Shown: positions 3,594-63,522 of the stretch, one piece after another
Position numbering within the stretch: the stretch's first letter is position 1
Layout of the letters: every line of letters begins with the position of its first letter
Assembly: GCA_002118135.1 (NCBI GenBank)
Contig: BDIU01000343.1
Location: 90,650-154,649, forward strand
DNA: 64,000 nucleotides
Direction of reading: 5' to 3'
Source: Trebouxia sp. TZW2008
Lineage: Eukaryota > Chlorophyta > Trebouxiophyceae > Trebouxiales > Trebouxiaceae
Made by a program: the position numbers and the translations under genes
Notes under the pieces: model-generated
Told to the model about the DNA's origin: nothing
Seen by the model: only the letters and a program-made list of their open reading frames with translations
Databases searched by the model: none

Positions 3594-3658
3594 TCACCAG
3601 CACCAGCACCAGCACCAGCACCAGCACCAGCACCAGCACCAGCACCAGCACCAGCACC
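3594..3658. repeat. Hexanucleotide microsatellite (CACCAG)n
   Basis: About ten perfect tandem copies of CACCAG, upstream of the acidic-protein gene. A minus-strand frame reading alternating Leu-Val is an artefact of the repeat. Confidence 0.95.
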
Positions 3659-3825
3659 ATTGTTCTGAATACAATCATATCAACATTATCAATGCCATTG
3701 TTGATATCATTGTTATGACCATTATTGTGTGTGAGTGATGATGTGTCTTCACGCACGATGCCAGCGGCCGCACGGCTCAGCAAACGATTAGAGAAGAACT
3801 GGAGCTGTCCGCAATCTATCCCAAG

Positions 3826-4000
3826 TCTGTTTTGGGGCCACAGTTCAAAACACTATGTTTTCTATTGCAGTGCTTATCGTGAAAAATGCGTTGGCTGGCG
3901 CAAATGGGAAAATCATCCCAAGTCGGGTTTGGGAGCCACAGCGGTTCAAACACTGTATTTTCCACTGCAGTGCTGAATGTAAGGAATGCGGTGATTGGTG
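3826..4000 (+). repeat. Two-copy repeat of the acidic exon's acceptor region
   Basis: The segment starting near 3826 ('atcccaagtctgttttgggg') and the one near 3920 ('atcccaagtcgggtttggga') align over about 95 bases through a TTGCAG/CTGCAG acceptor and into the exon (TGCTTATCG / TGCTGAATG). The downstream copy leads into the long acidic exon; the upstream copy is read in a different frame. This fits an upstream echo of that exon. Confidence 0.65.
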
Positions 4001-7000
4001 CGACTGCGATGGCTTCTCGAGTGACAAGGAGACAGATTCTCATGATTCTGAGGATCCGGCTGAGGCTGAGTCTGAGTCTGAGGCTGAGTCTGAGTCTGAG
4101 TGGTCGACAGAGGAATCGGACGCATCAAATGGTTCCGAAACAGACTCGTCCGAACCTGAGACACAAGCCATGGAAGAAAACGTCCAGCAGGCTCTCCTAA
4201 ATAGGTAAGACGCCCTAGTGTTGTCTGCATGTCTGCTTGTATTTGCTGACTGTGCTCTGCTGAGGAGAACGCCATGGAAAACACTGTAAAACAGGCTTTC
4301 ACAAATCAGTAAGACGCTCTAGTGTTGTGTGCACGCCTGCTTGTGTTTGCTGAAATTACTCTGCCAAGGAGAACGCCCTCCGTGAAAACATACAAAAGGC
4401 TGTCACAGAGCAGGAAGACGCTCTAGTGTTCTGCATGTCTGCTTACATTTGCTGGATTTGCTCTGCTGAAGGGAAAGCTGTTGAAAACATACAACAGGCT
4501 CTCACAACCCAGTAAGACACTCTAGTGTTGTCTGCATGTCTGCTTGTGTTCGCTGAGCTTGCTCTCCGTGTCGGCCTTTGACGACGTTGAGAGAGGAACT
4601 GTTATCATACCATCATAACCTTACTTATGTTACACCTGACAACGCAACCAACAGTTACAGTCTGTATTGCACAGTCACCTATGCGTTCCAAACTTTCGAC
4701 AATGTGTTCTTCTTCATCCCTTTCGGCCCCTGCACCATCTTATTTAGCTTGTCTTTTCGCCACGCCATGTGACTGGAGGTTCACACAAGGCACGATACAA
4801 ATACACAATCAATCAATTGATCAATAGAATTTTCAGGTTGGGGTAGGGAGCCAAATTGTGACTCATCACACTTCCTGGCCTGAAAGCTCTGGTCAATGTG
4901 TCTGGCAACCAAAGGCAGCTGATCATAACTTGCCTCAAAACACAGGCAAATATCTTGCTGATGAAAGGCTGACAAAGTATGCTTGGCATGCTAAACAATC
5001 TCCTGCGTTGGCTGAGAGCTAAATTTAATCATGATGATAATAATGACACATTCCAGCACATGTGCTGGGTATGTGTGGCCCAAGTCCTGTCGCCCTGGGC
5101 AGGCTGTTTGTCGGTATAGGCTGAGAGCCAAGGTCTGTTATAGTCACATGCATCAGCTGCTGCTTCCTAGTATTGCTGACTCAGTGATACTAACAATAAC
5201 CTGAGTCAGCATGTATTTAGTCAGACAGCAAATATTGAATGACTCATGCCACTATTTGTACTGCCTCTTTGATGGGTCCCTGTCTTAGGTGCCTGCCTGC
5301 CTGCAAGCCCTGGACTGGGCCTTGGGCAGGCACTGTGCGCTGCACTGAATGCAACTGTGCACGCTTTCTTGAACAAGAGGATAAAAGTTAGTGAACCAAC
5401 TTGGGCAAGTTGGTTGAAAGGCTGTGTTTGTGCAGGCGTATTTGGCAGTGGACTGGGCCACATGCAGGCACAGTGACCTGCCCTGAATGTAACGGAGTTT
5501 GTTTTGAGGAAATGGAGCACGTCAACATAGAAGGGATCTGCAACATTGGCACAGCTATCCCGTGGCACAATCAGGTTTGCTTGAACTGATTGCATCATGA
5601 ACTCCTTTCTCTTCCTCTTCTTCTTCTTCCTGATTTTTCAAAGGAAACAATCATGACTCAGCTAGGTGTCCAAACCCATTCCAACCTTGGATTGCCTGTT
5701 TCTGTCAGCATGACCATGCCTTCCATGCTTTGAGGGAGAGTGTATGACTCAGCTGAGTGCATACACAGCCAGCTTTGCGTACGCCAACTCGCGTCCCTAG
5801 CTTGGATTGGCTGTTTCTGTTGTCATCATAGGCAGCATTGACATATTTTTTGTGAGCATCTGCAATATCAGCACAGCTATCTCGTGGCACAAGCAGATTT
5901 ACTTGTGTCGACTCACATCTCAAGCTTAGATTGCCTGTCTCTGTCATCATCATCAATATCATCATCAGCACTTACATGCTTCCTTGTGAGGATCTGCAGT
6001 ATCAGCACAGCTATTTCGTGGCACAACCAAATTTGCTTGTGCTCACTCACATGTCCAGCTTGGATTGCCTGTCTCTGTCATTATCGTCAACGTCATCATC
6101 AGCGTTACATGCGTTCTTGTGAGGATCTGCGACATGGGCACAGCTCTCCCATGCCACAACCAGATTTGCTTGTGCTCACTCACATGTCGAGCTTCGCACT
6201 GCAGCATCATCTTCTTCTTCTTCTTCTTGTTCCTCTTCTTCGTCCTGTTCATCCTAGGGAAGAGATCATGACTCAGCTAGGTTCCAATGCATATTCCAAC
6301 CTTGGATTGCCCGTTTCTGTCAGCATTACCATCCCTTTCCTGCTGGTGAGGGAGAGTCTATGATTCAACTAGGTCCATACACAACTACGCGCTGCTGTAG
6401 ATAGACGAACACATCGATGCGCGGCGATCTTCAACCATCACATCAACAAGCTTCTTGACCACAGCATGAGGGTTTATGTGTTGCTGTAGATAGTCAAGCA
6501 CATTGATGTGCTGTGAAGGTCAACCATCACATCAACAAGCTTCTTGACGACAGCGTGAGGGTTTGTGTGTTGCTGTAGATAGTCAAGCACATCGATGTGC
6601 TGTGATCGTCAACCATCACATCAACATACTTCTTGATGACAGCGTGAGGGTCTGGGTGCTGCTGCAGATTGACAGGCATGTGGTGGCACAGCAATGTTCA
6701 ACTAACACATCAACAGATTCTTCATCACACCATGAGGGGTTGTGCGTCGCTGCAGATTGACAAGCACATGATTGCACAGCAATGCTCGACCAACACATCA
6801 ACAGATTCTCCATCACAACCTAAGGGGTTGTGTGCTGCTGCAGATTGATAAGCACATTATTGTACAGCAATCTGAACCAAACAATAGTTGTCTCACCACG
6901 GCATGAGTTATGTGCGGCTGCAGATTGCTATATACTTGATTGCACAGAGGAAGCTCCCCAAAGTCAATATGTCTCCGTCCTCCTTGGTTGTTTCTTGCTG

Positions 7001-9450
7001 CAGATCGAGATCTCTTGATTGCACAGCGACTTTTGACCAAAACATCAACGGTTTTGAATTCCCTATGATTGCATGTTGCTGCAAATTGAGAGACGCCTGG
7101 TTGCACAACAATCAACCAACACATCATCAGCATTGTCACTGTAATTTTGATATTTATGTGCTGCAATGGACTGACATGCACGTGATTGCGTAGCAACGCT
7201 CAACTAACATGTCGAGCATTCTCAATCAGTCATGATTGTGTGAGGCTGCAGATTGATAGACACTTGGTTGCTCAGAGGAAGAAACCCCACATGAGAGGTA
7301 TAGACCAGGGAAGAACAGAAGGCGTATACCTGGAGTACAACAGCGACCCTGTCACAGCAGATGACGGTAAGGCCTCATGCGATTGACAACCATCATGATC
7401 ACACTGAACTGAATGTAGAAACATAGTTACAGAATGTGTGAGGCGCAAAGCTGCATGCAAATGATCACACTCATGACCACCTGGCCACCTGGGTACAGTA
7501 GCGACCCTGTCACAGCAGATGAAGGTAAGGCCTCATGCAACTGACAACCATCATGATCACACTGAATTGAATGTAGAAACATAGTTACAGAATGTGTGAG
7601 GCGCAAAGCTGCATGCAAATGATCCTACTCATGATCACCTGGGTACAGTAGCGACCCTGTCACAGCAGATGAAGGTAAGGCCTCATGCAACTGACAACAC
7701 TCATGTGCATGCTGGCTGACATGTACTAGCATGACTACCAGAAGCACAAAAGGGGGATTCTTGGAGTATGACAGCAACCCTGTCACAGCAGATGGAGGTC
7801 AAGCCCACGCAATTGACAACGCTCATGTGCATGCTGGCTGACATGTACTAGCATAACTACCAGAAGCACAATAGGGGTGTGCTTGGAGCACAACAGCAAC
7901 CCTGTTGCAGCAGATGGAGGTCAAGCTCACGCAATTGACAACACTCATGTGCATGCTGGCTGACATGTACTAGCATGACTACCAGAAGCACAAAAAGGGT
8001 GTACTTAGAGTATGAAAGCAAGCCTCTCACAGTAGGTGAAGGTAAGGCTTCATGCAACTGATAGATTCCATGGCCACACTATTGCAAAGGGAACCTTGTC
8101 ATAGCAGATGAAAACCAGGCTTCATGCAACAAGCAACATTGATGGCCATACTGGCTTACATGTACTAGCATAATTATTCAAAGCACAAAAGGGGTTCTTG
8201 GAGCACAGCAGCAACCTGGTCACAGCAGATACAGAAATGGCTTCATGCAATTGACAACACTCATGATCACACTGAACACCTCTTGTCAGTCTGCAAAGGT
8301 AAGTCTATGCAACTAACAACAATCATGATCCTACTGGATTGCATTTCGCTTGTCATTGCATCCACAAAGAGTTCACGCACATATGGAAACCTAGTGTCCT
8401 GGTCCTATGTGTGCATGACTCACCACTGACAGTTTCAGGCTGGTGGTACTGTGTTGCTTGTCATTGTGTTACTAAGCGATTAGTACGTGTCTGGGAAGCC
8501 TTACTGCAACCCTGCAAATTCAGATTGTAGGTTTTGATGCACAGCGTCATGTGAAGCACGCATGGCATGTGTTGGTACTGCACAGACTATTGAGCATACA
8601 ACAAACTGCTTAACACCTTCTTTACCCCCCACTCCACCTCCCAGCTCCTCCCTTTGCATTTTATACGGCAGCCAGATTTTTTGCTTCAGTCTTCTCTCAT
8701 TGGCGTGTAGTGACACAGGCTTGTTCTTCTCTTGTGTAGAAGTCTGTTGCCCTTTCCTGTGCACGCTATCTTCTTTGCAACCACAGAGGATTCTGTATGA
8801 TTTCAAATCCTTGAGGGCTGAAACCAACAGCTGCATTAAAGACAGATGGGTGTGTTTCGTCCCCTTGCAACCGACTGTACTTTGTACATTTGCATTGCTG
8901 GGCATGATTCCTTACGCAGCAGGCTGTGCGACAAACGAAATGACATGTCTGCTTACGATAAAACATCTAGGCCATGTGCATGATCTCTCAAGCCTGTCTT
9001 CAGCGACAAACCCTGCCTCGAAGTTTGTGTTGCATGGTAAAAGTTGGTACTGTAATGCCCGTATCAACGCTTGTACCAAGGGACCATTTTACGCCTGACA
9101 TTCATGTTGCATGGTGATGCCTGGTGACAACTTTTGTCTGCTGACAAATTTTGCCACAGATTTTGTGTTACATGGTGCATCTGGTGACAACCCTTTGTGA
9201 TGCAGTGCTGCCATGGCAAGAATTTGCCAAAAATGAATTTCCTGATGAATTTCCTGATGCAACTGAGGAAGATAGCGAAAATGAACGTCAGTATTACTTC
9301 TCGGATGATTATGAAGATCAGATGACCGACTATATTGAAGGAGGCGTTGTTCAGGAGAACCTGCGGCCTGGACGACACATTGACCCAACTCTTGAATGGG
9401 TGCCACAACGAGGAGACACAAGTGAAGAAGACCTTGACGAATTTTCATGA
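3971..9450 (+). CDS. Uncharacterised acidic protein, four exons (5' end unresolved)
   Basis: Exons 3971-4204, 5436-5574, 7276-7366 and 9206-9450 join with matching phases (2, 0, 1) and good splice sites (GTAAGA, GTTTGC, GTAAGG; acceptors GCAG/TCAG). Together they encode about 236 residues: a Cys cluster (ECKECGDWCDCDG), a low-complexity Glu/Ser tract, a segment with CPECNGVC and EEMEHVNIEG, then RKKPHMRGIDQGR, LEYNSDPVTADD, and an acidic C-terminus (FSDDYEDQMTDYIEGG ... EEDLDEFS). The Cys pairs could bind metal. I do not recognise the family. Introns are unusually long for the exon sizes and are filled with tandem copies of exon edges (see repeat entries). The start codon lies in an unresolved exon near 3740-3850. 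Confidence 0.55.
4165..4525 (+). repeat. Downstream echoes of the acidic exon's 3' end
   Basis: The exon end encoding EENVQQALLNR plus its GTAAGA donor (to 4210) is followed by three decayed copies, near 4272-4320, 4375-4420 and 4478-4522, at a period of about 105 bases. They read ENTVKQAFTNQ, ENIQKAVTEQ and ENIQQALTTQ, and keep the linking intron sequence 'ctagtgttgtctgcatgtct'. The copies have lost the acceptor but keep donor-like ends. Confidence 0.8.
5036..5110. repeat. Short dispersed repeat family B, copy 1
   Basis: A segment with AATAATGACA, CCAGCACATGTGCTGGGTAT, GTGTGGCCCAAGTCCTGT and GGGCAGGCT recurs at 24455-24540 and 50691-50770. The copies share about 80 bases. Two of the three lie in introns. 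No internal open frame; class (SINE or MITE) not determined. Confidence 0.65.
5270..6310 (+). repeat. Echo series around the CPEC exon
   Basis: Upstream, 5282-5350 repeats the exon's 5' portion ('ggactgggcc' ... 'tgcactgaatgcaactgtg'). Downstream, the exon's last 45 bases ('ggatctgcaacattggcaca' and following 'gtggcacaa') recur near 5850, 5985 and 6120 with a period of about 130 bases, together with 'cttggattgcctgtctctgt' from the intron. The intact exon is 5436-5574. Confidence 0.75.
6385..7275 (+). repeat. Tandem array, about 85-100 bp units, before the 7276 exon
   Basis: About nine units share a segment like 'gctgcagattgacaagcaca' followed by 'gcaatgctcaaccaacacat'. The last unit ('ctgcagattgatagacactt' and 'ggttgctcag') supplies the acceptor of exon 7276-7366, so the array is an expansion of the intron's 3' end. 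Unit sequence decays toward both ends. Confidence 0.8.
7480..8300 (+). repeat. Downstream echoes of exon 7276-7366
   Basis: The exon end ('cagcgaccctgtcacagcag' then 'atgacg' plus donor GTAAGG) is followed by at least six copies, near 7497, 7646, 7762, 7882, 8005 and 8215, period 115-150 bases, each still carrying 'ccctgtcacagcagatg' or a close variant and a donor-like GGTAAGG/GGTCAAG. The copies are separated by intron sequence such as 'gctggctgacatgtactagc'. Confidence 0.85.
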
Positions 9451-11414: not shown

Positions 11415-11744
11415 GCTGTCTCAAGAACTGCCAGAAGACGTAAGAAAAAGTCAGCTCAACAAGAGCGAGCGCAGGTCACAGACCGAATATCGATAACCGA
11501 CTGCAGTGGCTTGGGGGATTTGCTTGCTTCGGTATGTGGTTTATGAAGCACTTCAAAAATTGATGTCGTCAAACCTGATTTCGATTACTTTGCTGCTGTG
11601 CAAACTTGTTTCGAGCGTGCGCCATCTGACTGGACGACCTTTGTCTTTTTTTGTGTTGGAAGACTTCTTCTGTCTGTACTCTTTGGGCTTCGGCAATCTC
11701 CTACTGCATTTTGTCGCTGACAGCTTTGACTCCTGGTCATATGC
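11415..11744. promoter_or_regulatory. Divergent intergenic region (shared promoter span)
   Basis: About 330 bases separate the start codons of the chloroplast membrane-protein gene (-) and the ALKBH6-like gene (+), so both promoters must lie here or overlap the first exons. No TATA box or other named element is clear. A short plus-strand frame before 11446 ending in a GTAAGA donor could be a non-coding first exon of the plus gene. Confidence 0.4.
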
Positions 11745-14700
11745 ATGCTTGACTCCATTTCTGATAGTTTAGCTCAATTTCGCCTAGACAGTTGCAGCTC
11801 ACCAGAACTTGAGGGATTGCATTACATACCGGATTATTTAGACACCGCTCAGCAGACGCGCTTATTGAACGACTTGATCAGGTCGAAAAGCAGCTGGACA
11901 CAGGTGTGGTATTTGCATGCAGCTTCCCTATCTGCATCTGCTGCCTGTCTAACACGAGCATCGGCAGCTTTCGGGCAGGAAGCTACAGACCTATGGAGGC
12001 ACTGTGCATGACAAGTGGGGAGGTCTGCTCAAGGCGCCAATGCCAGCTTGGCTTCAGGCACATCTGACCAGAATCGACAGCGCTTTTGCCCTATATCAGG
12101 GGCCAGCAAATCACGTCCTGCTCAATGCGTATCAGCCAGGGCAAGGCATCTTGGTATGAGTGCGCTTGCATGCTTTCTTTCTTCCATGTTTGCAGGGCTA
12201 GCAGCCAGACCATGCATGCATAAGCCTTGCGTCCTGCTGATGACATTGCTTACCCTTGCGCGTATGAACAGCCTCCTCTGGCGTCTTGTATCATTGCAAC
12301 TGCAAAATGCATGCCACAAAATCAAAAGCAGCGTTGCTCATGTCTGCCATCTGTTGCATGCATGCACTTGATGCCTGCAAATCAGATCAGAAAGGAGAAG
12401 AAAAGGAAAGACAACACACGAGCAGAGAACAGAAAGAGAGAGAAAACAAACAAGACAAAACAAACAAAACCAAAATCGGGCTCCTTGTCTTCTTTGTACA
12501 GGCTCACGAGGATGGACCAGTGTATTTCCCAGCTGCTTGCATCCTGAGCCTTGGCAGCACTGCAGTGATGCATTTCAGAAGAAAGATACAGGAGGGCAAG
12601 CTTTCCTGCTCCTGCCCTTTCATGCTTGACAGCCCTTACATACACACAAACGCTGTGCCTGTGCTTTGACACAGACATTATGCCTGCAACTGTGCACTCA
12701 GAAGCCACTGTCCCTTTGACTTGAGACATACATTGTGCCTGCAACTGTGCATTCAGAAAGCCACTATGCCTGTGACTTGACACAGACACCGTGCTTGCCA
12801 CTGTGCCTGTGACTTGAGACAGACACTGTGCCTGCAACTGTGCATTCAGAAAGACATTGTGCCTGTGACCTGAGACAGACATTCTGCCTGCGACTGTGCA
12901 TTCAGAAAGCCACTGTGCCTCTGACTTCAGACAGACATTTTGCCTGCGACTGTGCATTCAGACAGACGCTGTGCCTGTGACTTGACACAGACACTTTGCC
13001 TGCGACTACACACTCAGAAAGACACTGAGCCTCTGACTTGAGACAGACAACTTGTCAGTAACTGTGCATTCAGCCAGACGCTGTGCCTGTGACTTGACAC
13101 AGACACTGTGCCTGCGACTACGCATTCAAAAAGACACTGTGCCTGTGATGCCAGGCAGACCTTGCGCCTGCTGACTTTTGTTTGTGTAGGCCCGCGGTCT
13201 TGCGTTTTCTTGAGCCACAGGACTTGCAGAGCGTGTCAGATGCATCAGCGTCGCTGAGCAATGCGCGATTGCATCAGTACAAGCCACACCTGCACATGTC
13301 GCCTTGATGCTGATGAGTCATAAGACGCCACAACATGAGAATTCTGCTCTTACATCTTAATGAGACAAGCTGGTTCTGCTGGTTGCTGCTCTCTCTGGCT
13401 GCCTCTTTAGGCACAGGCTCCCCATTCTGATGCCTGTTGGCGTACACTTTGTTTTTCTCTTCAAGCAATTGCCTGTTGGCCTGAGCATTGCCTTGCAAGG
13501 TTGACACTGTCTTGCAGCTACTGACTACAGGACTTGCCAGTCATGGTATTTTCTGTGTAAATTAATTAAACTATCAACCCTTGTTGTCTAGAGGAAGCTT
13601 TGAAGTTCCGACACGGCATCAGCATTGATCACTGACAAGCCACTGCATGAGCACAAAGTTGCACAGCTTTTGCACACATTCACTAGGTTGATTGTGTCAA
13701 GCTGTTGCACAAGGCATTTGCTCTTACATCTTCATGACATAGGCAATCGCCTGTAGATTTCAACATCGCCTTGCAATGTCAATGTTGACTTGCGGCCCAT
13801 CCGTTGAGTTCCTGTTGGTACATACCATGACAGCCCTGCATGGTGCATGCCAGCTGGTGGCCAGTCTGCTTGAGTCCAGTCACAGTCCAGAGGATGCCCT
13901 TGAGGCGCATGCATCAAGCGCTTTACAGCAGCAGCAGCAGCAGCAGCATCTATCAACTCAACCGCGGCATTTGCTGTTCAGTAGCATCTTCTTTGATCTG
14001 CCTGTACTCAATGAAACGCTTAATCAAATTAGTGCTGCTGCTGCAGGCGTTGAAAGCAGTCCCTGTGCATCAGTGCTGTTGATGCCTGGCAGTCTCCTGA
14101 TCTTCAATGCTGAAGCCTACACTCAATGCTTGCATCACATTGACTCGGTGAGGCACTCCTCACTACAAAATCCTTTTCCATTGCTCCAGTACATGCCTAG
14201 CTGATGTTTTCAACATGTCTGAGCAAAGCAGTGACTAGAGGAGACAGTTGATTGCCCCATTACACACCTAGCTGGGCCTGCTGAGCCTGTCTAGTACATG
14301 TCCTGAAATGAATGCATGAATGACAACATGATCTTCAATGCAGAAGCCTACACTCAGTGCTTGCATGGCATCAACTTTGTAAGGCATTTGTTATTACCAG
14401 ATGCTTTTTGCTTTCTTTGCTGGGATGTTTTACATGTCTGTGCAAAGAAGTGACTAGAGGAGACAGTTCATTGCTCCAGTGCATACCTAGCTGGACCTGC
14501 TGAGCCTGTCTAGCATGCGTTCTGAATGAGTGAATGAGTGCATGAATGACATCATCTTCAACCCAGAAGCCTATATTCAAGTTGGCTGGTATGGCATCAG
14601 CCCAGTACAGCATGTCTTGACACAAGCTGCTTTCCCCTTCCTTTGCCATGCGCAAGAGATCAAGCTTTGATGTTGCTGAGTACATTTGTTTCAAGCCCAT

Positions 14701-28400: not shown

Positions 28401-28981
28401 GGGTTTGTCAATGCAGAATTTGCTGCCAGGCAATGCATGCAGTATAAAGACATCGACTTAAAGTATCAGCAATACAGATCAAGTATCTTCTGCTTCGTCG
28501 TGCTTGCAGGTGCATATGGATGCCACTATTTGATGCAGCAAAGCAAGGTCATGCATGTATACCAAATGCTGACTACATCAGTTGGCACTGAAAGACAGTA
28601 AAAGCACTGCCATAAACCCGCTTATTGCACAACATCACCTGATAGCCTTTGGTGGCTTGAAAACGGCTTGTTTGCTCACAAAGATTTGCTCCTACAGCCA
28701 AAATAAGCAAGATCAACGATGGTACCGATAGTGTCTAGGCGCATTTCGCCATTTGACATACCTGTCCATCGACCTTCCAAGATGTGACGTGAGCACCGTG
28801 CAAGTAAACCTCGGCTGTTGAGCCCTGCAGCAACTTCGTGTTTGTGGTATGGTATTCATGCAGGCATGCAAGGTCTGCATGGAGCAAAGGTCACCGTCGA
28901 ACTTTTCAGCTGAACTTTCTTCAAGCCTGTAATCTCGTCTGTGACCACTTGAGAAGTGGCCCCGGACGGCGCCTTCGCCAT
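25441..28981 (-). CDS. Glucose-6-phosphate 1-epimerase-like (aldose-1-epimerase family)
   Basis: Seven minus-strand exons, 28981-28895, 28824-28762, 28691-28639, 28088-27905, 26729-26475, 25991-25866 and 25545-25441, sum to 873 nt (290 residues), all phases matched. Landmarks of the D-hexose-6-phosphate mutarotase (apospory-associated protein C) family are in order: AEVYLHGAHVTSWK, FKPPKAIRGGIPVCFPQFG, AQHGFARN (active-site His), FTTALHTYFRISDIS (second His), LQFLDNAKNRQ, DAVVWNPWTDKAKGMADFGD and EMICVEAA (catalytic Glu). It interconverts the alpha and beta anomers of hexose 6-phosphates. No targeting peptide is evident, so probably cytosolic. Exons 4 and 5 have echoes in neighbouring introns. 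Divergent from the DUF89 gene. Confidence 0.9.
26780..27185 (-). repeat. Two upstream echoes of epimerase exon 5
   Basis: On the minus strand, copies at 27175-27085 and 26911-26790 precede the real exon (26729). Each starts with the acceptor ...CAG and encodes V.V.KD.LTQELR(V/I)VNGK. The 26911 copy continues through FTTALHTYFSISDISQTYA before diverging. The real exon is the last copy in transcription order. Confidence 0.9.
27600..27840 (-). repeat. Downstream echoes of epimerase exon 4
   Basis: The 3' end of exon 4 (ATLSLSPTEEQRQGAFPEHTLYVK plus donor GTATACC, written here only as landmarks 'cccactgaggaacag' and 'gtcaaggtatacc') recurs at about 27835-27755 and, more degraded, 27680-27605. 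These follow the intact exon in transcription order and lack its 5' half. Confidence 0.85.
28130..28230 (-). repeat. Upstream echo of epimerase exon 4
   Basis: At about 28225-28135 on the minus strand the sequence reads V.FPQVGEV.QVTAQPGFDCNTDF, a decayed version of VCFPQFGDLGPVKAQHGFARNTEF in the real exon. The active-site His of the real exon (AQHGF) is replaced by Pro (AQPGF) in the copy, so the copy could not supply an active product. Confidence 0.85.
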
Positions 28982-54900: not shown

Positions 54901-57900
54901 AAAGTCTTCTGACTTGTGTCTCCTGTGCAGGTGAATGAGATCACGTTCACCGCCTACGATTTGTGAGCTGTCCTGACTTGTGATTGCCACATAGTTGAGT
55001 GTGTTCAGAGTCACTGTTTGCTGTGTGTCAGAAAGTTGTTTGAAGTTTGCTGTCTTGTGATGCAGGTGAATGTGTTCACATTCATAGCCTGCAATATGTG
55101 GGCTCTGGTTGACAAGAGGTCTGAACATGTCTGAGTCAGGTCTATCTTGCAGGTGAATGTGCTCACCTTCATAGCGTGCAATGTGTGGGCGCTGATCGAC
55201 AAGTGCAGCTGGCTGGGCAACGCCACACCCTGGCTGGGCTGGGTCACATGGTCCTGCTGGAATACGGTAATTATCACTGCTACTTGCCACAATTACCTGT
55301 CTTCTCCTGCTTATACCTATCAGAATCAGCATAGCAGTAACAGCTGCAATGTGTGGTGCTGATTGACACATGCAGCTGGCTGGCTAATGCCACACCTTGG
55401 CTGGGCTGGGTCACATGGTCCAGCTGGAACAACGTAAGCACCACAGTTGTGCTCATCTGTCATACTCTGTGTTTGGAATGATCCCTTGGGCTCACACATG
55501 TCATATATCAAAGCAAGCACACATATACGGCCAGATGAGTCATATGGTCCAACTGGGCAACAGTAAGAACCACTGGTACCTGTCCTGTCCATGCGTCACA
55601 AATATGTTTCATAAATGTCACATGGTCCTGCTGGGATACGTTTATTACCTGCCGTATGTCCTAGATCTACCTACCATTCTTACCACAGCTGCCTGCCGTA
55701 CCCATGTTTCACTGTTCTGTTTGACGTTTGTCACGAGTCAGCAGACAAGTATCTTGGCTGGACTGGGTCACATTGTCCTGGTGGAACACAGTGATAATCA
55801 TAGCTTCTTGTTTGTTTCAGATGTTGTTCCTTGTTGGTGCTGCCTGTTGTCCAGATGCATGCATCCAGCTTGTCAAGGGTCAGCAGGAGAAGCAACACCT
55901 TTGCAATGTGTCATGATGTTAGTGTTGCCATGTGCATGCCATGTATGCAAGCGGCAGCTGCCTGTAGTCAAGCACCGAATGTGCCGCACATGTTTCTGGC
56001 ATTTCTGCATAAAAGTCAATCCCCATGCCACAGTTGCTCACCTGGCGCCTGCTCTTCTTTTCCTACAAGCTGCACCTTTCAGCAATCACCATATTGAAAC
56101 TGCCTTGAGTCAATCACCGTGTTGCCCGCCTACCTTTACTCAACCGCTGAATGCGCTGCAGATCTTCTGGACGTTTTGGATCCAAGTGTTGAACTCCATG
56201 CCTCAGCCGCTTGCCTGGCACCCGGCTTCCTTGGAGGCTTGCGTATGATCTCTTCTCATTTAAATGTCGTTGTTGCTGCAGATCTTCTTGACATTTCTGA
56301 TTCAAGTGTCCAATTCCATGCCCCAGTCGCTCAACTGGCACCCACTTTCCTTCATGAACAAGCTCCATCTTCCTTCATTCACCAAGCTTGAGCATTTCAA
56401 GCCCATTTCACAGCGCCTGAAAGGCTATGCTCAGACCAGTGAAACGCTGATAGTGGTTGATGGGTCCATGTGGCAGCATCTGCCCAAGTTTGTGCTTTGG
56501 GCTTGCTTGGAGGTCACTCAGACGGCGCTGGCCTGCTACCAATACTACCATGGTAAGCGCCACTCTTGTGTGCTGTACTGCTATCAATACTGCTATGGTC
56601 ATGCATGATCTGTCAAAGGTGTTGCATTCCATCGTGTGGCGTGCTTGGAGTTTACCCAGACGGCACTGGCCTGCTACCATGGTAAGACCCTCCTCCCCCC
56701 CCCCGCCCCGACCCCCAACAACCGCCTCTGCCATGAAGCATCGCTAGCAAACTGTTTTGTGATGTGGAAGCAGCTGCGCAGATTCTGCTGCAAACTTGCC
56801 TGGAATGTACTGCAGCAGCGCTGGCATGCTACAATACTATCATGATTAGCCGCCCCCCCCCCCAATCCTAACCTCCCGCCCCCTCCCCGTCCCCTCCAAC
56901 ACTCCTTCCGCCACAATGCGTCAATAGCGCTTTGTTTGATCACCTGGCAGCATCTGCCCAGGTCCGTGCTGTGGGCATGCTTGCAGTTTACTCAAACTAC
57001 ACTGGTCTGCTACCAAAATCACCATGGTCAGCCTTAGTCATGGTATGCATGATCTGCCCACAGCCTTTTGTTCAGCTGCATGCTCTGTGCATATTCAGCG
57101 CAACTGAGCCCTCAGCAACATTGCTCCTGTTGGATTTGCAATCAAGACAAAGCATTGCACATCAACAGCAATCCAGTTGTCTGTGCGCCTGAAAGACTGT
57201 CAATTGTTGTTTGTAGTGATACCAGAGAGCAGGAGACAAGTGGGCACAGACTGCCACGCTGCAACATTTGTGTGCAAGCAGGACAGCACCAAAATGGTCC
57301 TCACAGCACTCTTCTTGATGTCTCAAACAATGTCAAAGTCACAAAATCATACTTTGTGTCTGCAGTGATCCCAGAGAGCAGGAGGCAAGTGGGCACAGAC
57401 TGCCACACTGCAATATTTGTGTGCAAGCAGGACAACACTGAGATGGTCCTCACAGCCCTGGGTGCCTTCTGGATTCTGGTCTACATTGTCTGGTTCCATG
57501 TCTACCTGTTACAAGAGTTCCGGTTTCTAAAAAGGTCAGGGCACTTTCGCAAGCGTTGGAATGGATGCACTTTTCCTTCAAACAAGCATTGCTGCAGTAG
57601 AAGCAGCATCAGTAAGTAGTGTTATGAGCTTAAATCAATCATGTTGGCTGGATGCTCAAACAGTTGTGGCCGTCCTTCAGCATTGCATTTGCTTTTTGCA
57701 GGGTGCCATACACGCCGCATTGCATCAGCAACATCATTGTGCACACCAGATGCAGCCCAGCTGACCACAAGCTGGTGATTTCCACCGACAGTGGTGTCTG
57801 CTTGTAGGATGCCTTACACTGCACGTTGCATCAGCAACATAATAACGCTGATCAACATGCCAATCAGAAACAGTACAGTCCAAGACAGAGTGGCAAATCC

Positions 57901-60900
57901 TAGACATCGTGACATTTGCTTGTAGGGTGCCATACACGCCACACCGCATCAGCAACATCATTGTGCGAATCAACACACGCATGCGGCTGCCATTTGTGGC
58001 GTCTTTCCTGCTGTGTCTCATCTTGTGGTGGGGCGTCAAGATCCGCAGCTGCTTCAGCTTTGTATTGGCTTGGCAAGGCTTGCTTCCTATGCAGGTTTGC
58101 AATTTGAACATGCTGTGCATGCTGTGCAGCAGGAATGCTTTGTCACTTTTCTGCTGTGCCTCACTTTGTTCTGGGGCGTCAAGATTTGCAGCTGCTTCAG
58201 CTTTGTGTTGGCCTGGCAAGGCTGGCTTCCTATGCAGGTATTTTGACTGATTGTAACAATTTTTGCCTACACAGAGTTTGAGCGGCGCATGCTGCGCACT
58301 GAAGTGGCCAGCATCGTTTGCTTTGCCGTGGCGTTTGCATCAATTGTTGCAAGAACTGCGTTGTGCCTACATGTCAATGCGTCAAATCATAGGTATAATA
58401 GCACGGTATGCAAAGTGCTCAAACACCAGTCTTGGTGGCGTCAAAAGCATGCCCTGACTTGATTTTCCTGCTTGATTGTGGCACACGCACTGTGAGATTG
58501 TATGTGTGTTGTGCAGATCACAGAGACATCAGTGTTGGTGGCGTGAAAGTTGTTAGGCATGCTCTCAGTCTATACACCTGATTGACTGGGCCAAAATCAT
58601 GCCTCACACATGGAGAGGGTGCATATATGTTGCGAACATCATGCCCTCAGTCCACTCACCGGCTTGACTGTGTCATAATCATGCTTGACATATGATGAGG
58701 GTGCGTATGTTTTGCGTAGATCATAGAGACATCAGTGTTGGTGGCATGGAGCTTCATAGCAATGCCAAAAGATCCAAAGGGCAAACCACCGCTCATGCAG
58801 GTACGAAAAAGCTCCTGTTTCAAAATTTTGCATCTTCAAGAGTCTAGGCTTGAGTAATTTGCATATGCTCATTCACACGCCGTTCAGCACGAATATCACT
58901 TACCACTTTTGCATGAGATGCTCAGAAATTATGGTACAAGCATGTCTTTGCTTTACATCGCTCAAGGCATCAGGCTTTCAGGCTATCAAGTGTATGCTGC
59001 AAGTTTTGTGTGCAGTCTGCCGACGCTGTTTTTCTGAGCTCAGCGGTGTCATTCTACACTGCCAAAAAAATGTTTTGTTCAATTCTGTCTGCTGACGCTG
59101 CCTTTGTTAACTCAGCGCTGTTGTTCCACACTGCCAAAATGAGTTTTGTTACATTCTGCCTGCTGATGCTGCTTTCCTCAGCTCAGAGGTGTTGCCTTAC
59201 ACTGCCAACATGAGTTTTGTTCCATTCTGTCTGCTAAAGCTGTGTGTCTTAGCTCAGCGCTGTTGTTCTGCACTGCCAAAATGAGTCTTGTTCCAGCGTC
59301 ACAGACGTTGTGCTTGCTTGGCAGGTATGGCTTCAGGAGTTCTGCTGGAACTATAAATCCAAGGAAGCCAAACTGCAGCTGCGCAACCAGTCAGCGCCTG
59401 AGAACAGAGACCTCGCTGCTGCGCCCATGTTCTGTTTTGAGGTGAGCGTGTGTGGCATGTCACAACATCACAGCATTCTGTGTTTCCTGACCCAGCATGA
59501 TATCAACACTGATGCATCCTGCCTTGTTCTGCCGCTGCAGTACATGCTAAGGTCAGCTCACTACCAGGTTGCCGATTCAAAAGTGCTGCGTGCAAGTCTG
59601 CAGCAGCAAAACAGCTTGATGCGGGCATAATCCTGCCTGTTGTGACTGGAAAGTGTGTTGAGACTGAAGTTTGATCTGGCAGCATTACAGCATGATCTGG
59701 CCATAATCCTGCTTGTTTTGACTGGAAAGTGTGTTGAGGCTCAAGATTTGTTGTGGCTGCAGGATGCAATGAAGCTGTTGTACTGGAGTGTGCTCATCTA
59801 TGATTACAAAGAGGTGAGTGTCTGCCAATGCATGTGAAGAAATGCCGTTCTGCATAGCACACGCAAGACGTGTCTTGTGTGCACACACCCATTGGAGAGC
59901 ATGCTACATCTTTCTGCTCCAGATTCTGCCTCTTGCATTGTGTGTAGATCTCATTTGCGACCAATGCACAAAAGCTCGTTCGCAAAATGGGGACCATGTT
60001 GCAGCTAGAGCTTGTTGAGCCCTCAACCCATGCAAAATCTTCAGTAAATTAGTTTCAACCATGTCTGTGCTGTCTAAACGGCTGCTGTTCAGCATTTGCA
60101 ATTATGGTGATGTCATGCAAAGTGCACAGCACACTAGCTTTCAGATGCTTTGGGGCTTTTGTATGCCAAGTTTGCCTGATATATTTAGTCTTTGTCGTTG
60201 TACTACAGGCGGAGCGCACAAGTTTGACCTTGGACGAAGGCAAAGACTTGTATGGCTTAGAAAAGCATGAACTGCTATGGGAGCCTAAGCATGACACCAA
60301 GTGCTTGCTGTCGTTTGGTGCAGATGCAATTGTGGTAGCTTTCAGGGGCACTGCATCCCTCAAGAATGCCTCCGCCGACATTCAGGTGACCTTTAGCGCT
60401 GACCAAAACTCCATGGCGTTTCAGTCGCACAGATGTGACTAGGCATTAGGTGCTGAATTATTGGCATGTTCAGCAGTCATCAAAGCTACTGCATGCCCAG
60501 GGCTTGTGTCTTCTGACATTCAGATGAGAATCCAGCACAGAAATCCAACCCATGATATATATCTCACTTGCTCATTTATGTTTTGGAGAAGCATGAGCTG
60601 CTATGGGAGCCTAAGCATGACCCCAAGTGTCTGCTAGCCTTCGGCCTAGATGCAATTGTGGTGGCTTTCAGGGGCACTGCATCCCTCAAGAATGCTTCCG
60701 CTGACATTCAGGTTAACTTCAGCACATGAATTGAACAGCTGACCTCATTCAGCCACACACTTAGCACAACAGCAGGTGCTGGTCAAGTTGCTGGCTGTCG
60801 TCACTCAAGTGGTCTTCAAGTAGCGCTGCATCAGCAACACTGCATACAAGTGGGAGCTCACTTGTTTCCCCTGCCCTTCTTCTTCATGCGTGGCAGGCAG

Positions 60901-63522
60901 GGCACCCCCTGTAGGGGGCGGGGTTGGTTGGGGCGCCATCCCAGGGTGCATGCTGGCTCCTGTTTTTCTTCCTCCTTAGTGAAAGGTCTTCTGTCTTCTT
61001 CTTCAGGCATGGCAAGCATTGCACCCCCGCTCCAGAGGGCTTGGGTGGTTGGGGCGTCGCCCCTTCAGGCAACTTGTCCTTCTTCTTCTCTTCTGCTCTG
61101 ACCTGACTCCTGTCTTCTTCTTCTTCAGGCATGGCAGGCAGTGCACCCGCCTTCCAGAGGGCGGGGCTGGCTGGGGCGCCGCCCCAAGGTTCATGCTGGC
61201 TTCCTCAAGAGCTGGCTAGCAGGTAATCTGAAGGACAAGGTGGTGACCAGCGTCCTGAAAGCCCTGCAGGATCACAAGGGGATCAGCCCAATCAACAGGA
61301 TCATGATCACAGGTAAGCCTTTCTGTGACTGCAATCTGTTGCTGGGACTGTGAGTGTTGCTATGACCTGTTGTTGATGACCCATCACTACGGCCTGTAAC
61401 GGTGGGTATGAGTGTGATCAGCGAAACCCTTGCAAGTCACAGCCTACCAGAGCCGCTCTCGCCCGCCTCTGACATTTCGGCTGCAGTGAAGGAGGCGGGG
61501 ATCATTGCTGTAACTGATGCTGTCGCTATCACTGCTACTGCTACTGTCAGTACTGCTATTGCTACTGTCAGTACTGCTACTGCTTCTGCTACCAGTACTG
61601 CCGTTGCTACTATCACTACTACCAGTCTCGGCATGACTGTGATCATGCTGGTCACTTTGACTGTGACTATGACTGCTGATGCTGCTGCAGGTCACAGCCT
61701 TGGGGAGCCTCAGCTACACTGTGCGCCTTTGACATTGCAGCTGCTGTGAAGGAGGCAAAGACTGTCACTGTCACTGTCACTGTTACCATTGCCATGACCC
61801 ATTTCCATTGCTGCTACTGCCATTACAGGTCGCAGCTTAGGCGGAACGCTAGCCACCCTGTGTGCGTTTGACATCATACCTATTGCGAAGCAGGCAGGTA
61901 CTGTTGCAGGGGGGGGGTGAGGGCAGTTCACCTTGTCCATGTGGCATGGCCATGGTTTTGATCTTGCTTTGTTACACTGACTGCAACTGTAGGATTGTCT
62001 GAAGCCATTGCTGGCAACAATCCAGATTGCATCTTCATGGCACTGCAGGTCACAGTTTAGGCGGAGCCTTGGCCACTCTGTGTGCCTTTGACATTGCAGC
62101 AGCCGTGAAAGAGGCTGGGGCTGTTGCAGAGGGGGGCAGGGCCATTGATGTGTGCTGTTACACTTTTGGAGCCCCTAGGACCGGCAACAGGGCTTTCAGG
62201 AATGAGTTCAACGAGCTGGTGCCCAACTGCTGGGGCATCATCAATGACCAGGTATGGGACCATTCAAGGCTCAAACTTCAGGGTCAAGCTTGAGACGAGA
62301 GCTTACTAGTTTCAACAATCTAGGACTGGCAACAGGGCTTTTAGAAAGGAGGTCAATGAGCTTGTCCCCCAACTGCTGGGGCATCATCAATAACCAGGTA
62401 TGGGCATACCTAGGGTTTGGGATGTAGGGTTGGGTTTGAGATCGGTTCAATGATCTGGTGTCCAACTGCTGGCGCATCATCGTGACTAGGTTACCATCTC
62501 TGGACAAGCTTTCAAACAACATGGTACAGTACAGCAAAGTGCAGCGCAGTGCAGCACAGCACAGCACAGTACAGTACTTAGGAGCTCCCAGGACTGCAAA
62601 CAGAAGTTGTAGGCACGTGGCGACACAAGGGGGGCAAGATGATGTGATTGTACAGCTGGCCAAGGTAGCCGTGTCTGTAATGTGCATGAATGTTTGTCTT
62701 CTGCAGCATGTGGTGACAGGGGTTGGCAAGCTGCTGTGGCTGTACAGCCGTCCAGGCAGCCTTGATAGATGTCGTGTGACCTTTCTGCAGCATCCAGACC
62801 TTCCTGGAATTGACTGTTGTTGTGGTTGGTGTAGGATGTGGTGACAAGGGGTGGTAAGATGGTATGGCTGTACAGCCGGCCAGGGCAGCGTGTGCTGGTC
62901 AACAGCAGAGGCGACATGATTGTGCGGCCCTCTTGGGTGGAAGCTTCCCTACAGAGACTTCCAGGAGGTCAGCTTGTTGCTGTCTTGTTGCACTTGCTTA
63001 TGCTTTGGTGTGCTTTGCACCAACATGCTTGTCAGCATGAGAGCTCACAGCCATTTTGCACAGGCTTTGACAAATTCAGTCTTTTGCTGCGTTCGTGCAA
63101 CAACACCTTCTGCCATGACGCCACATACTCATTGCGCACATCATGACTCAGTCTGCAACAGTGTGAGTGTGTGCATAGGTAGCGTCAATCATCACCTGCT
63201 GGCGCAGTACTACAACTCCATGTGTGCAATCATCCTCCAGCAGTTTGATAACAAGATCATTCATGGGGGCATGGAGGGCATAGTGGAGATGGCCTTAGAA
63301 ACGCCCCAGCTAGCAGCCCTTTTGGAGGAGCACATGGGGCTGCCATTGCATCAAATGCAGCAAGCAGTACAATCGCATCAAAATGGCAACTACACCCGGA
63401 TTGCAACTGCCAAGCAGCCAAAGTTGTCGTTTTACACGAGGGATAGTGGATCTACACCAAAGCGCCGTGTTGAAGACGGTCAGACAAGGGGTGCTGGTTT
63501 TGGTTGCTGTGGCGGGAGATGA
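51955..63522 (+). CDS. Multi-span membrane class-3 lipase (17 exons)
   Basis: Exons: 51955-52064, 52166-52383, 52761-52852, 53119-53199, 53838-54038, 55153-55266, 56282-56552, 57366-57534, 57926-58094, 58720-58800, 59325-59441, 59763-59813, 60209-60385, 61129-61312, 62049-62251, 62835-62967, 63179-63522; 2715 nt, 904 residues, phases matched throughout. The first 140 residues are soluble and polar. Residues about 140-500 hold around seven to nine hydrophobic spans (e.g. WAATLIAYAALFAEF, LGAFWILVYIVWFHVYLL, LPFVASFLLCLILWW). The C-terminal half is a fungal-lipase-type (class 3) domain: IVVAFRGTASLKNASADIQ (oxyanion region), VHAGFLKSW, the nucleophile elbow GHSLGG, CYTFGAPRTGNRAF, NDQDVVTRGG, and HHLLAQYY as the catalytic His candidate. 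It probably hydrolyses acylglycerols or galactolipids at a membrane. The start codon was chosen as the first ATG in frame. Nearly every intron carries exon echoes. Confidence 0.85.
52636..52705 (+). repeat. Upstream echo of lipase exon 3
   Basis: 'gtgccaggtgataatggatc' and 'agcagatgagcatgagcact' repeat the acceptor and first 45 bases of exon 3 ('gcacaggtgacattggatca' and 'gcagatgagggagagcactg', 52754 onward). The copy is followed by TGTGACTTTGCG, lacking the rest of the exon. Confidence 0.8.
52945..53085. repeat. Dispersed repeat family A, copy 2
   Basis: Matches 488-612 ('gcctcagaagccttgctagg', 'gagcaacctagtctgtacac'). It lies in lipase intron 3. Confidence 0.6.
53640..53837 (+). repeat. 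Two upstream echoes of lipase exon 5
   Basis: Copies beginning at 53652 and 53744, and the real exon at 53838, are spaced 92 and 94 bases. Each has the acceptor 'ttgca(c/t)acag', then ACAAGCCGGAT-like sequence coding S.ILHT.T.S, then VVGCF/VGF. In the copies the sequence returns to intron ('caccatgct') where the real exon continues into LACQLLRSFIW. Confidence 0.92.
54069..54235. mobile_element. Pogo/Tc1-like MITE, about 165 bp, in lipase intron 5
   Basis: Left end TACAGTATTTCTTGC; right end ...GAGCTGTTACTGTGA. Internal 'aggtccttacaacttgtcct' is the reverse complement of the 'gtaaggacaa' pattern seen in the other two elements, so it is in the opposite orientation. No coding capacity. Confidence 0.6.
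54610..55152 (+). repeat. Five upstream echoes of lipase exon 6
   Basis: Copies start at about 54626, 54713, 54800, 54932 and 55067, each with TTTGCAG/CTGTGCAG/GATGCAG then GTGAATnTGTTCAC and most of 'catagcctgcaatgtatggg' followed by 'ctctagtcaataagaggcct'. The real exon (55153, VNVLTFIACNVWALID) is sixth. Periods are 87, 87, about 130, 135 and 86 bases. Confidence 0.93.
55355..55800 (+). repeat. Four downstream echoes of lipase exon 6
   Basis: The exon's 3' half ('cacaccctggctgggctggg', 'tcacatggtcctgctggaat') recurs at 55362-55433 (long, with donor ACG|TAAGC-like), 55535-55566, 55618-55642 and 55755-55792 ('ggactgggtcacattgtcct'). With the five upstream copies, this 114-base exon has nine echoes. 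Confidence 0.92.
56150..56265 (+). repeat. Upstream echo of lipase exon 7
   Basis: 'gctgcagatcttctggacgt' through 'gcctggcacccggcttcctt' repeats the acceptor and the first 75 bases of exon 7 (56282). Weaker traces of the same unit occur near 55985-56060. Confidence 0.85.
56610..57040 (+). repeat. Three downstream echoes of lipase exon 7, with C-runs
   Basis: Segments near 56635-56685 (ACLEFTQTALACYHG plus GGTAAGAC), 56765-56845 and 56945-57035 ('ggcagcatctgcccaggtcc', 'tttactcaaactacactggt') repeat the end of exon 7 (WQHLPKFVLWACLEVTQTAL). Long C-rich runs (56696-56712, 56853-56905) separate them. Confidence 0.88.
57205..57330 (+). repeat. Upstream echo of lipase exon 8
   Basis: From 57217 the sequence repeats acceptor TAG and 'tgataccagagagcaggaga' through 'caaaatggtcctcacagca', i.e. 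the first 105 bases of exon 8 (57366), then diverges into intron (CTCTTCTTGATG). Confidence 0.92.
57690..57870 (+). repeat. Two upstream echoes of lipase exon 9
   Basis: 'ttttgcagggtgccatacac' with 'gccgcattgcatcagcaaca' (57697-57750) and 'gcttgtaggatgccttacac' with 'ttgcatcagcaacataataa' (57801-57855) repeat the acceptor and first 50 bases of exon 9, which starts at 57926. Confidence 0.9.
58120..58245 (+). repeat. Downstream echo of lipase exon 9
   Basis: 58138-58240 repeats the last 105 bases of exon 9 including 'ttctggggcgtcaagatttg' and 'ggcttcctatgcag' plus donor GTATTT. The frame remains open (FLLCLTLFWGVKICSCFSFV). Confidence 0.92.
58380..58560 (+). repeat. Upstream echoes of lipase exon 10
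   Basis: 'gtgcagatcacagagacatc' then 'agtgttggtggcgtgaaagt' (58513-58552) repeats the acceptor and first 38 bases of exon 10 (58720, 'atcatagagacatcagtgtt'). A weaker copy lies near 58385-58445. Confidence 0.82.
59015..59305 (+). repeat. Minisatellite in lipase intron 10, about 68 bp, about four to five copies
   Basis: Units carry 'ctcagcgctgttgttccaca' and 'ctgccaaaatgagttttgtt' followed by 'ctgtctgctga'. They are not copies of either flanking exon. Confidence 0.88.
60570..60720 (+). repeat. Downstream echo of lipase exon 13
   Basis: 60586-60712 repeats the last 126 bases of exon 13, with about 16 differences by eye, ending CATTCAG|GTTAAC against the real CATTCAG|GTGACC. The copy stays open (KHELLWEPKHDPKCLLAFG, VVAFRGTASLKNASADIQ) and retains the oxyanion-region motif but has no acceptor. 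Confidence 0.93.
60885..61085 (+). repeat. Two upstream echoes of lipase exon 14
   Basis: 'cgtggcaggcagggcacccc' (60889) and 'ttcaggcatggcaagcattg' (61002) with 'ggttggttggggcg' / 'ggtggttggggcg' precede the real exon (61129, 'gcatggcaggcagtgcaccc'). The spacings are about 118 and 122 bases. Confidence 0.9.
61425..61905 (+). repeat. Three upstream echoes of the lipase catalytic exon (15)
   Basis: Copies near 61435, 61689 and 61829 begin with CAAGTCACAG, CAGGTCACAGC and CAGGTCGCAGC and encode degraded GHSLGG-FDIAAAVKEAG: the first lacks the motif, the second reads GHSLGEPQLH (frame lost), the third GRSLGGTLATLCAFDI. Only the last copy (62049) is intact GHSLGG. Between the first two is a 61500-61650 run of 'actgctactgtcagtactgc'-type repeats; a G-run lies near 61911. 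Confidence 0.92.
62315..62500 (+). repeat. Two downstream echoes of lipase exon 15
   Basis: 62322-62400 repeats 'aggactggcaacagggcttt' through 'ggggcatcatcaat' plus CCAG|GTATGGG; 62440-62492 repeats a shorter part ('gtgtccaactgctggcgcat'). With the three upstream copies this exon has five echoes. Confidence 0.9.
62600..62790 (+). repeat. Upstream echoes of lipase exon 16
   Basis: 'gcagcatgtggtgacagggg' with 'gctgtggctgtacagccgtc' (62703-62755), and an older copy at 62603-62675, repeat the start of exon 16 (62835, 'gatgtggtgacaaggggtgg' with 'ggtatggctgtacagccggc'). Confidence 0.88.

Follow-up and report, generated by a model that had tools for sequence, protein, structure and literature searches.

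Series of exon-edge copies in the introns of a Trebouxia-like lichen alga

Genes and exon-edge copies in the window

We analyzed a window of 64,000 nucleotides, positions 90650–154649 of contig C321, from an assembly of 527 contigs that together hold 68,541,624 bases; the accessible text of two genome papers gives Trebouxia assemblies as 63–74 Mb (PMC11523091, PMC12712428). The best named relatives of the epimerase and phosphatase proteins of the window were those of Trebouxia sp. C0009 (72%) and C0010 (86%), respectively, and the lipase had relatives in Trebouxia C0005 (70%), C0010 (63%), and C0004 (63%). Judged by these proteins, the genome is that of a Trebouxia-like lichen alga that is distinct from all four strains.

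Three genes were modelled by spliced alignment of independent homologous proteins. Other exons were taken from an HMM gene finder trained on Pfam-matched coding stretches, and these model exons are independent of the original prediction. Of 72 Pfam seeds, 53 lay at least 90% within its exons, and it learned a donor near AG/GTRAG (the slash marks the junction). The acceptor consensus of the HMM introns of the genome was very strong, T(0.87)G(0.84)C(0.91)AG/G(0.69), i.e. TGCAG/G. No gene was called before about 14.8 kb of the window, and the copy tests cover the remainder. The finder itself called some copies exons (e.g. 32699–32752 and 32859–32900); because of these miscalls and the 53 of 72 seeds, counts beyond the three protein-supported genes are approximate.

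The epimerase gene was aligned with P0001 (99% identical), which derives from a 1320-nt contig and falls into six exon blocks across 3.4 kb, so that it is presumably a spliced product. P0001 contains none of the intronic copies of this gene. It starts, at 28825–28894, within the first intron called by the HMM finder, and the transcript behind it may retain that intron. In regards to the lipase gene, P0241 and P0242 yield the same exons between 53119 and 62251, apart from 56282–56552, which is split in the P0242 alignment. The first exons are based on P0241 and the HMM finder; for the last two, P0242 was used with the HMM finder, the P0241 alignment being fragmented beyond 62251. The three genes and their copies are as follows.

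25441–28887, minus strand: glucose-6-phosphate 1-epimerase gene (P0001 spliced alignment, 99%; stop-codon end from the HMM finder)
28762–28887, 28639–28691, 27905–28088, 26475–26729, 25866–25991, 25441–25545, minus strand: epimerase exon blocks (P0001)
26795–26966, minus strand: acceptor-edge copy of exon 26475–26729 (119 nt exon part, 88%); TGCAG retained, homology extending into the intron flank
27048–27179, minus strand: second, more distant acceptor-edge copy of exon 26475–26729 (80%)
27548–27832, minus strand: two donor-edge copies of exon 27905–28088
28147–28222, minus strand: upstream copy of the 5′ part of exon 27905–28088 (80%), junction not crossed
29363–34208, plus strand: ARMT1-like phosphatase gene, 9 exons (P0121 spliced alignment, 88%; Pfam PF01937)
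29363–29472, 29561–29669, 29855–29979, 30247–30345, 30860–30980, plus strand: phosphatase exons 1–5
31623–31767, 32373–32590, 33459–33596, 33969–34208, plus strand: phosphatase exons 6–9
31123–31475, plus strand: three donor-edge copies of exon 30860–30980 (offsets 191, 334, 485)
31828–32189, plus strand: donor-edge copies of exon 31623–31767 (offsets 108, 310, 419)
32662–32903, plus strand: two donor-edge copies of exon 32373–32590 (91.5%, 92.5%); GT retained, intron-side match 3 nt only
33097–33350, plus strand: two upstream copies of exon 33459–33596, one acceptor-crossing
51973–63496, plus strand: class 3 lipase gene, 17 exons placed, 51973–52064 to 63179–63496 (P0241, 70%; P0242, 63%; Pfam PF01764)
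52646–52684, plus strand: acceptor-edge copy of exon 52761–52852
53631–53810, plus strand: acceptor-edge copies of exon 53838–54038 (offsets 93, 186)
54536–55116, plus strand: array of acceptor-edge copies of exon 55153–55266; spacing in several a multiple of about 88 nt, TGCAG intact in several
55345–55810, plus strand: donor-edge copies of exon 55153–55266 (offsets 168, 374, 524)
55982–56232, plus strand: acceptor-edge copies of exon 56282–56552
56638–57032, plus strand: downstream copies of exon 56282–56552 (offsets 138, 294, 474), the first without junction crossing
57208–57310, plus strand: acceptor-edge copy of exon 57366–57534 (94 nt exon part, 89%; intron side 9 nt)
57686–57857, plus strand: two acceptor-edge copies of exon 57926–58094
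58146–58239, plus strand: donor-edge copy of exon 57926–58094 (92 nt exon part, 88%)
58505–58545, plus strand: acceptor-edge copy of exon 58720–58800
60577–60723, plus strand: donor-edge copy of exon 60209–60385 (135 nt exon part)
60876–61063, plus strand: acceptor-edge copies of exon 61129–61312
61685–61916, plus strand: acceptor-edge copies of exon 62049–62251
62320–62491, plus strand: donor-edge copies of exon 62049–62251
62608–62760, plus strand: acceptor-edge copies of exon 62835–62967

HMM exons with copies were also found in three further genes of the window (DUF1254/1214, RINT1-like, and short-chain dehydrogenase). Tandem Repeats Finder gave regular head-to-tail spacing at 54536–54804 and 53640–53903, and in others the units are separated by sequence with no detectable homology; the smallest offset per array was 72–445 nt.

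Self-comparison of the window gave 158 direct pairs, of which 126 had an offset below 500 nt, and 9 inverted pairs. The three genes contained 69 local direct pairs; one copy was exonic in 45, neither was in 24, and both were in none. The 45 one-exonic pairs comprised 23 that crossed an acceptor with the copy upstream, 19 that crossed a donor with the copy downstream, and 3 that crossed no junction. No pair crossed a junction on the wrong side: the 42 of 45 pairs that span a junction, which are boundary-crossing direct duplicates within the same gene, all lay on the expected side (42/42). This one-sidedness is not a separate finding, because it follows from geometry once the duplication breakpoint falls inside an exon. 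Only one copy is then continuous with the rest of the exon, so that the intact exon closes an acceptor series and opens a donor series.

The copies sit inside a single intron between two exons that the homologous proteins join. A copy was present in 15 of the 29 introns, including all 13 introns of at least 550 nt, and the longest copy-free intron was no longer than 524 nt. The median lengths were 642 nt for introns with a copy (n = 15) and 293.5 nt for those without (n = 14). This is an association, and longer introns also give more room for copies. Detectable local repeats made up 31–38% of the intron bases in the three genes.

Occurrence in the wider gene set

The copy tests were extended to 76 merged loci outside the window, obtained from the best 8 of 134 Pkinase, the best 30 of 125 Mito_carr, and the best 30 of 98 Helicase_C matches and from all 24 Proteasome matches. 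The first three families are represented by their best-scoring matches and are therefore a biased sample, whereas the proteasome set holds every match. HMM exons of at least 40 nt (shorter ones were left out) were compared with the adjoining introns, and a score of at least 36 was taken as positive. In the window and the 76 loci, the adjoining intron matched the exon in 57 of 411 upstream and 29 of 401 downstream comparisons. The corresponding values were 0/411 and 2/401 with introns of other genes and 0/411 and 1/401 with reversed introns. Outside the window, 60 exon sides were positive (41 upstream and 19 downstream), and the exons supported by Pfam seeds gave 8/64 upstream and 4/56 downstream. 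These controls, which stay near zero, together with the 45 copies in the three genes, show that the copies of exon edges with splice sites, as originally predicted, are real; they also speak against chance as their source.

The expected exon edge was reached within 8 nt in 41 of the 57 upstream cases (5′ edge) and 21 of the 29 downstream cases (3′ edge), together 62 of 86. Only the opposite edge was reached in 2 of 86 (the HMM exon 19062–19147 of the window and one exon in locus L087), and the whole exon was spanned in 9 of the 86 rows of this model-based set. The original prediction held that the copies are always one-sided. This holds strictly in the three protein-supported genes; in the model-based set it is a strong but not an absolute rule. 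Acceptor-side copies were about twice as frequent as donor-side copies in the HMM set (57/411 vs 29/401), the numbers of pairs in the three genes being 23 and 19.

Local pairs within 1500 nt in the window and the 76 loci were direct in 373 cases and inverted in 11; pairs were kept at an offset of 25–1500 nt, a length of at least 25 nt, and at least 32 bits. When short-period repeats were masked, 357 direct pairs remained, which argues against low complexity as their cause. The same sets bear on mobile elements or introners, an explanation that fits the occurrence of repeats in the introns of many genes. However, the listed arrays match their own exon, direct pairs far outnumber inverted ones, and no dispersed family appeared among the best candidates of genome searches with three arrays, which returned the own locus and two short matches (119 nt, 72%; 74 nt, 88%). 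We regard this explanation as extremely improbable.

The copies are unevenly distributed. Local repeats covered 25% of the window, 20% of the 30 Helicase_C loci, 7% of the Mito_carr and Pkinase loci, and 1.3% of the 14 proteasome loci, and they made up 14% of the intron bases in the loci other than the three genes. The 76 introns of the 14 proteasome loci yielded one upstream and one downstream case. The introns of these loci (L009–L032) are short, with a mean of 199 nt. Copies may be purged from highly expressed genes. Intron growth is usually put down to mobile elements. The proposal that boundary duplications have been a main source of it fits the three genes, in which long introns consist to a large share of recognizable pieces of the gene itself, but does not extend to the proteasome genes, which are almost without copies.

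The same anatomy was found in Pfam tables without any gene model, as the front of a profile repeated upstream, or its rear repeated downstream, of a fuller match. Five partial duplicates chosen by eye among Pkinase and Helicase_C matches all fit it (C73:132270, C130:70887, C352:40532, C100:437455, and C44:78555); at least two ambiguous overlaps (C273:616613 and C57:38842) were left out of this count. None of 245 proteins examined for internal repeats, as a sign of copies in other species, contained any.

Decay of the copies and extent of the homology

The identity between copy and exon, counted in columns inside protein-supported exons only, was 0.866, 0.887, and 0.741 at codon positions 1, 2, and 3, respectively. 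An exon and two of its copies were compared in 30 non-independent copy pairs, each of which shared at least 20 exon columns and lay at least 40 nt apart. Both copies agreed against the exon at 16/473, 6/477, and 49/469 sites of positions 1, 2, and 3, which we read as probable changes of the exon itself. One copy alone differed at 95/473, 81/477, and 138/469 sites, and all three sequences differed at 9, 0, and 15 sites. The change per copy at positions 1 and 2 is about 9%, close to the exon's own third-position change of about 10%. On these few arrays, the copies are thus shown to decay at about the synonymous rate with no coding constraint. Codon changes in the copies were nonsynonymous in 235 and synonymous in 172 cases, 10 of the 45 copies were net frame-shifted, and 5 stops occurred in 939 codons. 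The identity between copies was 0.780, 0.830, and 0.674 at positions 1, 2, and 3. The excess at position 3 (138/469) agrees with copies having been taken at various times while the exon changed; in the copy–copy comparison it would also follow from past coding constraint.

In the 128 one-exonic pairs, transitions amounted to 9.5–12.2% and transversions to 3.0–4.3% per base, with no strand-specific or one-sided mutation excess in the copies. This ordinary transition-biased spectrum speaks against RIP-like or A-directed mutation. The offsets of the one-exonic pairs, taken modulo 3 (50/47/33), show no multiple-of-three bias, which argues against reading-frame filtering of the copies. An assembly or read-error artefact might be suspected in a genome of 527 contigs. 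However, errors would not be expected to vary with codon position or to favor transitions, so the objection was not borne out, and we take artefact or chance to be practically negligible as an explanation.

The median pair identity was about 80%. Sorted by their best pair, none of 130 arrays reached 98%, 1 lay at 96–98%, 3 at 94–96%, and 7 at 92–94%, and the process is therefore not visibly ongoing in the stretches seen. Short-period repeats of 96–100% identity do exist in the window (3595–3659 and 2818–2916). If the process were steady and neutral, young pairs should be the most numerous. It has therefore either stopped or slowed, or near-identical copies were collapsed in the assembly. Collapse of this kind is likely only above about 97% identity.

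The homology is concentrated in the exon part. In the three genes, the match per copy had a median length of 74 nt on the exon side and 9 nt on the intron side. When the real site was compared with the copies, the exon side scored in 45/45 and the intron side in 9/45; between copies, the values were 28/33 and 3/33. The intron side of the homology was 0–13 nt, i.e. the span of the splice signal, in 34 of 45 copies, at acceptors and donors alike. The distribution was bimodal, with matches of at least 54 nt in 8 of 45. The asymmetry was weaker in the model-based loci (intron-side median 17.5 nt; below 20 nt in 32/56; at most 13 nt in 26/56).

These data bear first on plain duplication, in which a head-to-tail copy arises across the junction and then undergoes neutral decay only. 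Such duplication fits the direction, the sidedness, and the neutrality of the copies, as well as the full-unit homology in arrays such as 54536–55116 (period near 88) and 26795–26966, and a flank was detectable in 18 of 45 copies, although some of the windows tested may hold other copies. It predicts, however, flanks as old as the exon parts, in conflict with the scores of the two sides, and among the nearest copies, 20 should contain 40 nt or more of intron, but 15 of these matched less than 20 nt of it. When the plain tandem model was simulated at the age that fits the identity, both sides scored 0.95–1.00 (lower indel ratio) or 0.80–0.97 (higher indel ratio). The contrast between real site and copy was approached only at 0.25–0.3 substitution per site, where the pair identity was 72–75% and the copy–copy exon signal faded: at 0.25 and the higher indel ratio, the simulation gave this contrast taken by itself (0.92 for the exon and 0.16 for the intron), but 0/6 copy–copy exon sides scored at about 75% identity, against the observed 28/33 at about 80%. 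The simulations likewise did not bear out slower exon divergence as the sole reason for the exon-biased homology and the enrichment of exon edges. Unless introns evolve about 3 times faster than synonymous sites, these results speak against plain duplication for most copies, and we judge it improbable as the whole explanation. Two large arrays in stretches of the window with no predicted gene (6391–8344 and 12637–13176) are still alignable across whole units, with pairs of 68–89%, and generally fast noncoding evolution is therefore unlikely. The prediction that boundary duplications are tolerated by splicing is compatible with the direct, local copies and with the spliced-looking P0001 free of them; in the form of plain duplication, it is not supported by the flanks of most copies.

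Residual similarity was found in the flanks of the acceptor copies. In 18 flank-poor acceptor copies, the intron similarity was about 0.49 at −6 to −12 (baseline near 0.29) and 0.40 at −13 to −24 (baseline near 0.26), which suggests that these flanks were once homologous. In 9 flank-poor donor copies, it was 0.48 against a baseline of 0.26 to about +11, and 0.27 against 0.25 beyond.

We consider it about an even chance that the copies are old local tandem arrays, the exon parts of which were later re-copied from the living exon in a gene-conversion-like manner; the codon pattern, which argues against constraint, and the improbability of fast noncoding evolution favor this explanation. Short local stretches would have been duplicated in direct orientation, often across an exon–intron junction. 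The spliceosome would have stayed with the site that gives the shortest exon, so that the extra piece remained intronic and did little harm. The extra pieces would then have decayed at about the synonymous rate, free of coding constraint, while the old arrays were re-copied over the part that was still exon-like, the re-copying probably halting near the junction. Their exon-derived parts would have been copied from the living exon at different times, around 0.1 substitution per site ago. On the 30 non-independent copy pairs on which the ages rest, the exon parts would coalesce about 0.1 substitution per site ago and the flanks about 0.3 or more ago, or never.

Against re-copying, ongoing conversion should leave nearly identical copies, and 0 of 111 one-exonic pairs of at least 50 nt reach 95%. 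We know of no efficient conversion between stretches of 30–135 nt that are 75–85% alike. The re-copying explanation also leaves an excess of edge-type arrays unaccounted for: in the three genes, 21 of 25 arrays included an exon edge and 4 were intron-only, and the 83 arrays in the loci comprised 56 one-exonic, 19 both-exonic, and 8 intron-only. Random placement gave an edge-type share of 56–72% with copy-free intron lengths (P 0.003–0.13), 41% with the present intron lengths, and 49–50% in a fuller simulation. This is a hint, not a proof, that duplication prefers exon edges.

The main rival to the re-copied arrays is copying that from the start took in only exon ends and a few nucleotides of the splice site, through template switching or an RNA-linked mechanism beginning or ending at splice junctions, which we hold to be unlikely. 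The short intron homology of most copies in the three genes and of nearly half of those in the loci (26/56) agrees with it, as does the scarcity of intron-only arrays. The donor flanks at baseline beyond +11 would fit such copying better than re-copying. On the other hand, the acceptor copies retain similarity past 13 nt, and the 8 copies that match at least 54 nt of intron are not expected from it. To our knowledge, no mechanism for copying confined to exon ends has been described. We regard as doubtful the broader proposal of a copying process directed at exon ends and separate from plain tandem duplication, by which living edges with their splice signal are repeatedly placed on the removable side, in the adjoining intron. 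Many genes of one algal lineage would have gained longer introns in this way, and the process would apparently have slowed or stopped within the last 0.05–0.1 substitution per site. If the exon-limited homology holds, it would imply that recombination, or copying of some kind, respects splice junctions. The exon-edge copies point to an uncommon way in which introns may lengthen.

Splice sites in the copies and relation to known systems

By alignment in the three genes, AG was kept in 20 of 25 acceptor copies and GT in 15 of 20 donor copies (35/45). Ungapped projection in the three genes and the loci gave 35/49 and 17/33, respectively, which weakens an apparent conservation of AG well above expectation that had rested on alignment ends. 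Most copies keep AG or GT, so their splice motifs have not been selectively destroyed. The matrix score was at least that of the real site in 14/49 acceptor and 7/33 donor copies of the three genes and the loci, and in 9/25 acceptor copies of the three genes. Decay of the motif alone therefore cannot explain why the copies are rejected. No opposite splice site was found near the copies beyond background (9/25 and 4/20, vs 43% and 24% of windows), consistent with the expectation that acceptor copies lack a donor and donor copies an acceptor. In this respect the copies are unlike cassette exons, and together with the 10 frame-shifted copies this result argues against cassette, tandemly duplicated, or mutually exclusive exons.

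Functional copies, kept by selection as decoy or alternative splice sites, would agree with AG/GT retention slightly above the expectation from exon identity alone, with the high-scoring acceptor copies, and with exon parts more conserved than flanks. The copy-specific change at positions 1 and 2 is nevertheless close to the synonymous change of the exon, and no partner site rises above background; we consider such a function very unlikely.

Rejection of the copy sites would be explained by exon definition. The choice of the site that gives the shortest exon is not automatic from geometry: intron definition would favor nearer sites across the intron, and the copies would enter the mRNA. Each array is thus a natural experiment in splice-site choice, in which copies, some of them as strong, adjoin the real site. 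The shortest-exon site is the one backed by the homologous proteins, as exon definition predicts, in a single-celled alga.

Gao and Lynch (2009) reportedly treated duplications within genes, some with intron parts, as common; their focus was on new introns and cryptic sites, and duplications inside genes are what their cases share with Trebouxia. Hellsten (2011) is said to have reported intron creation of the tandem-duplication type. In the accessible text of a review (PMC3443670) and of a paper on Drosophila cases (PMC2891723), introns are gained by local tandem duplication rescued by splicing. Such an intron is built from exon sequence, whereas the Trebouxia copies lie inside an intron between protein-joined exons. 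The closest known case that we have seen is the potato RNA-dependent RNA polymerase gene, with a tandem duplication across an intron–exon boundary, in the accessible part of Ma, Lan and Niu (2016, PMC4974935). As in Trebouxia, the duplicated segment there joins the 3′ end of an intron to the 5′ part of the next exon, and the acceptor is inherited. The potato case is a single event that made a new intron via a cryptic donor, whereas many Trebouxia genes carry copies in series, at acceptors as well as at donors, without a new exon. An intron flank duplicated with the exon part, as in potato, is clear in a minority of the Trebouxia copies and absent or lost in most. In the literature searched, in which subscription papers are thinly covered, introns lengthened by series of exon-edge copies were not found, in agreement with the claim that the pattern had no earlier description. 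Of two Trebouxia genome papers, the words "tandem repeat" and "introns" do not occur in PMC11523091, nor does "tandem" in PMC12712428. As far as these sources show, a single boundary-crossing duplication is known, and what is new here is the series of copies at both edges in many genes.

Several arrays resemble minisatellites in their regular periods (e.g. 71–184 nt). They are unlike minisatellites in that 21 of 25 include an exon edge and in that the homology is mostly limited to the exon. The window also contains large tandem arrays at 6391–8344, 12637–13176, 39173–39933, and 47807–48563, with units of 56–178 nt and about 68–90% identity; a genome-wide search with array 6391–8344 returned only its own locus among the best candidates. 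In addition, two arrays of pentanucleotides, (GACAC)n at 2818–2916 and (CAGCA)n at 47587–47676, are about 90–100 nt long.
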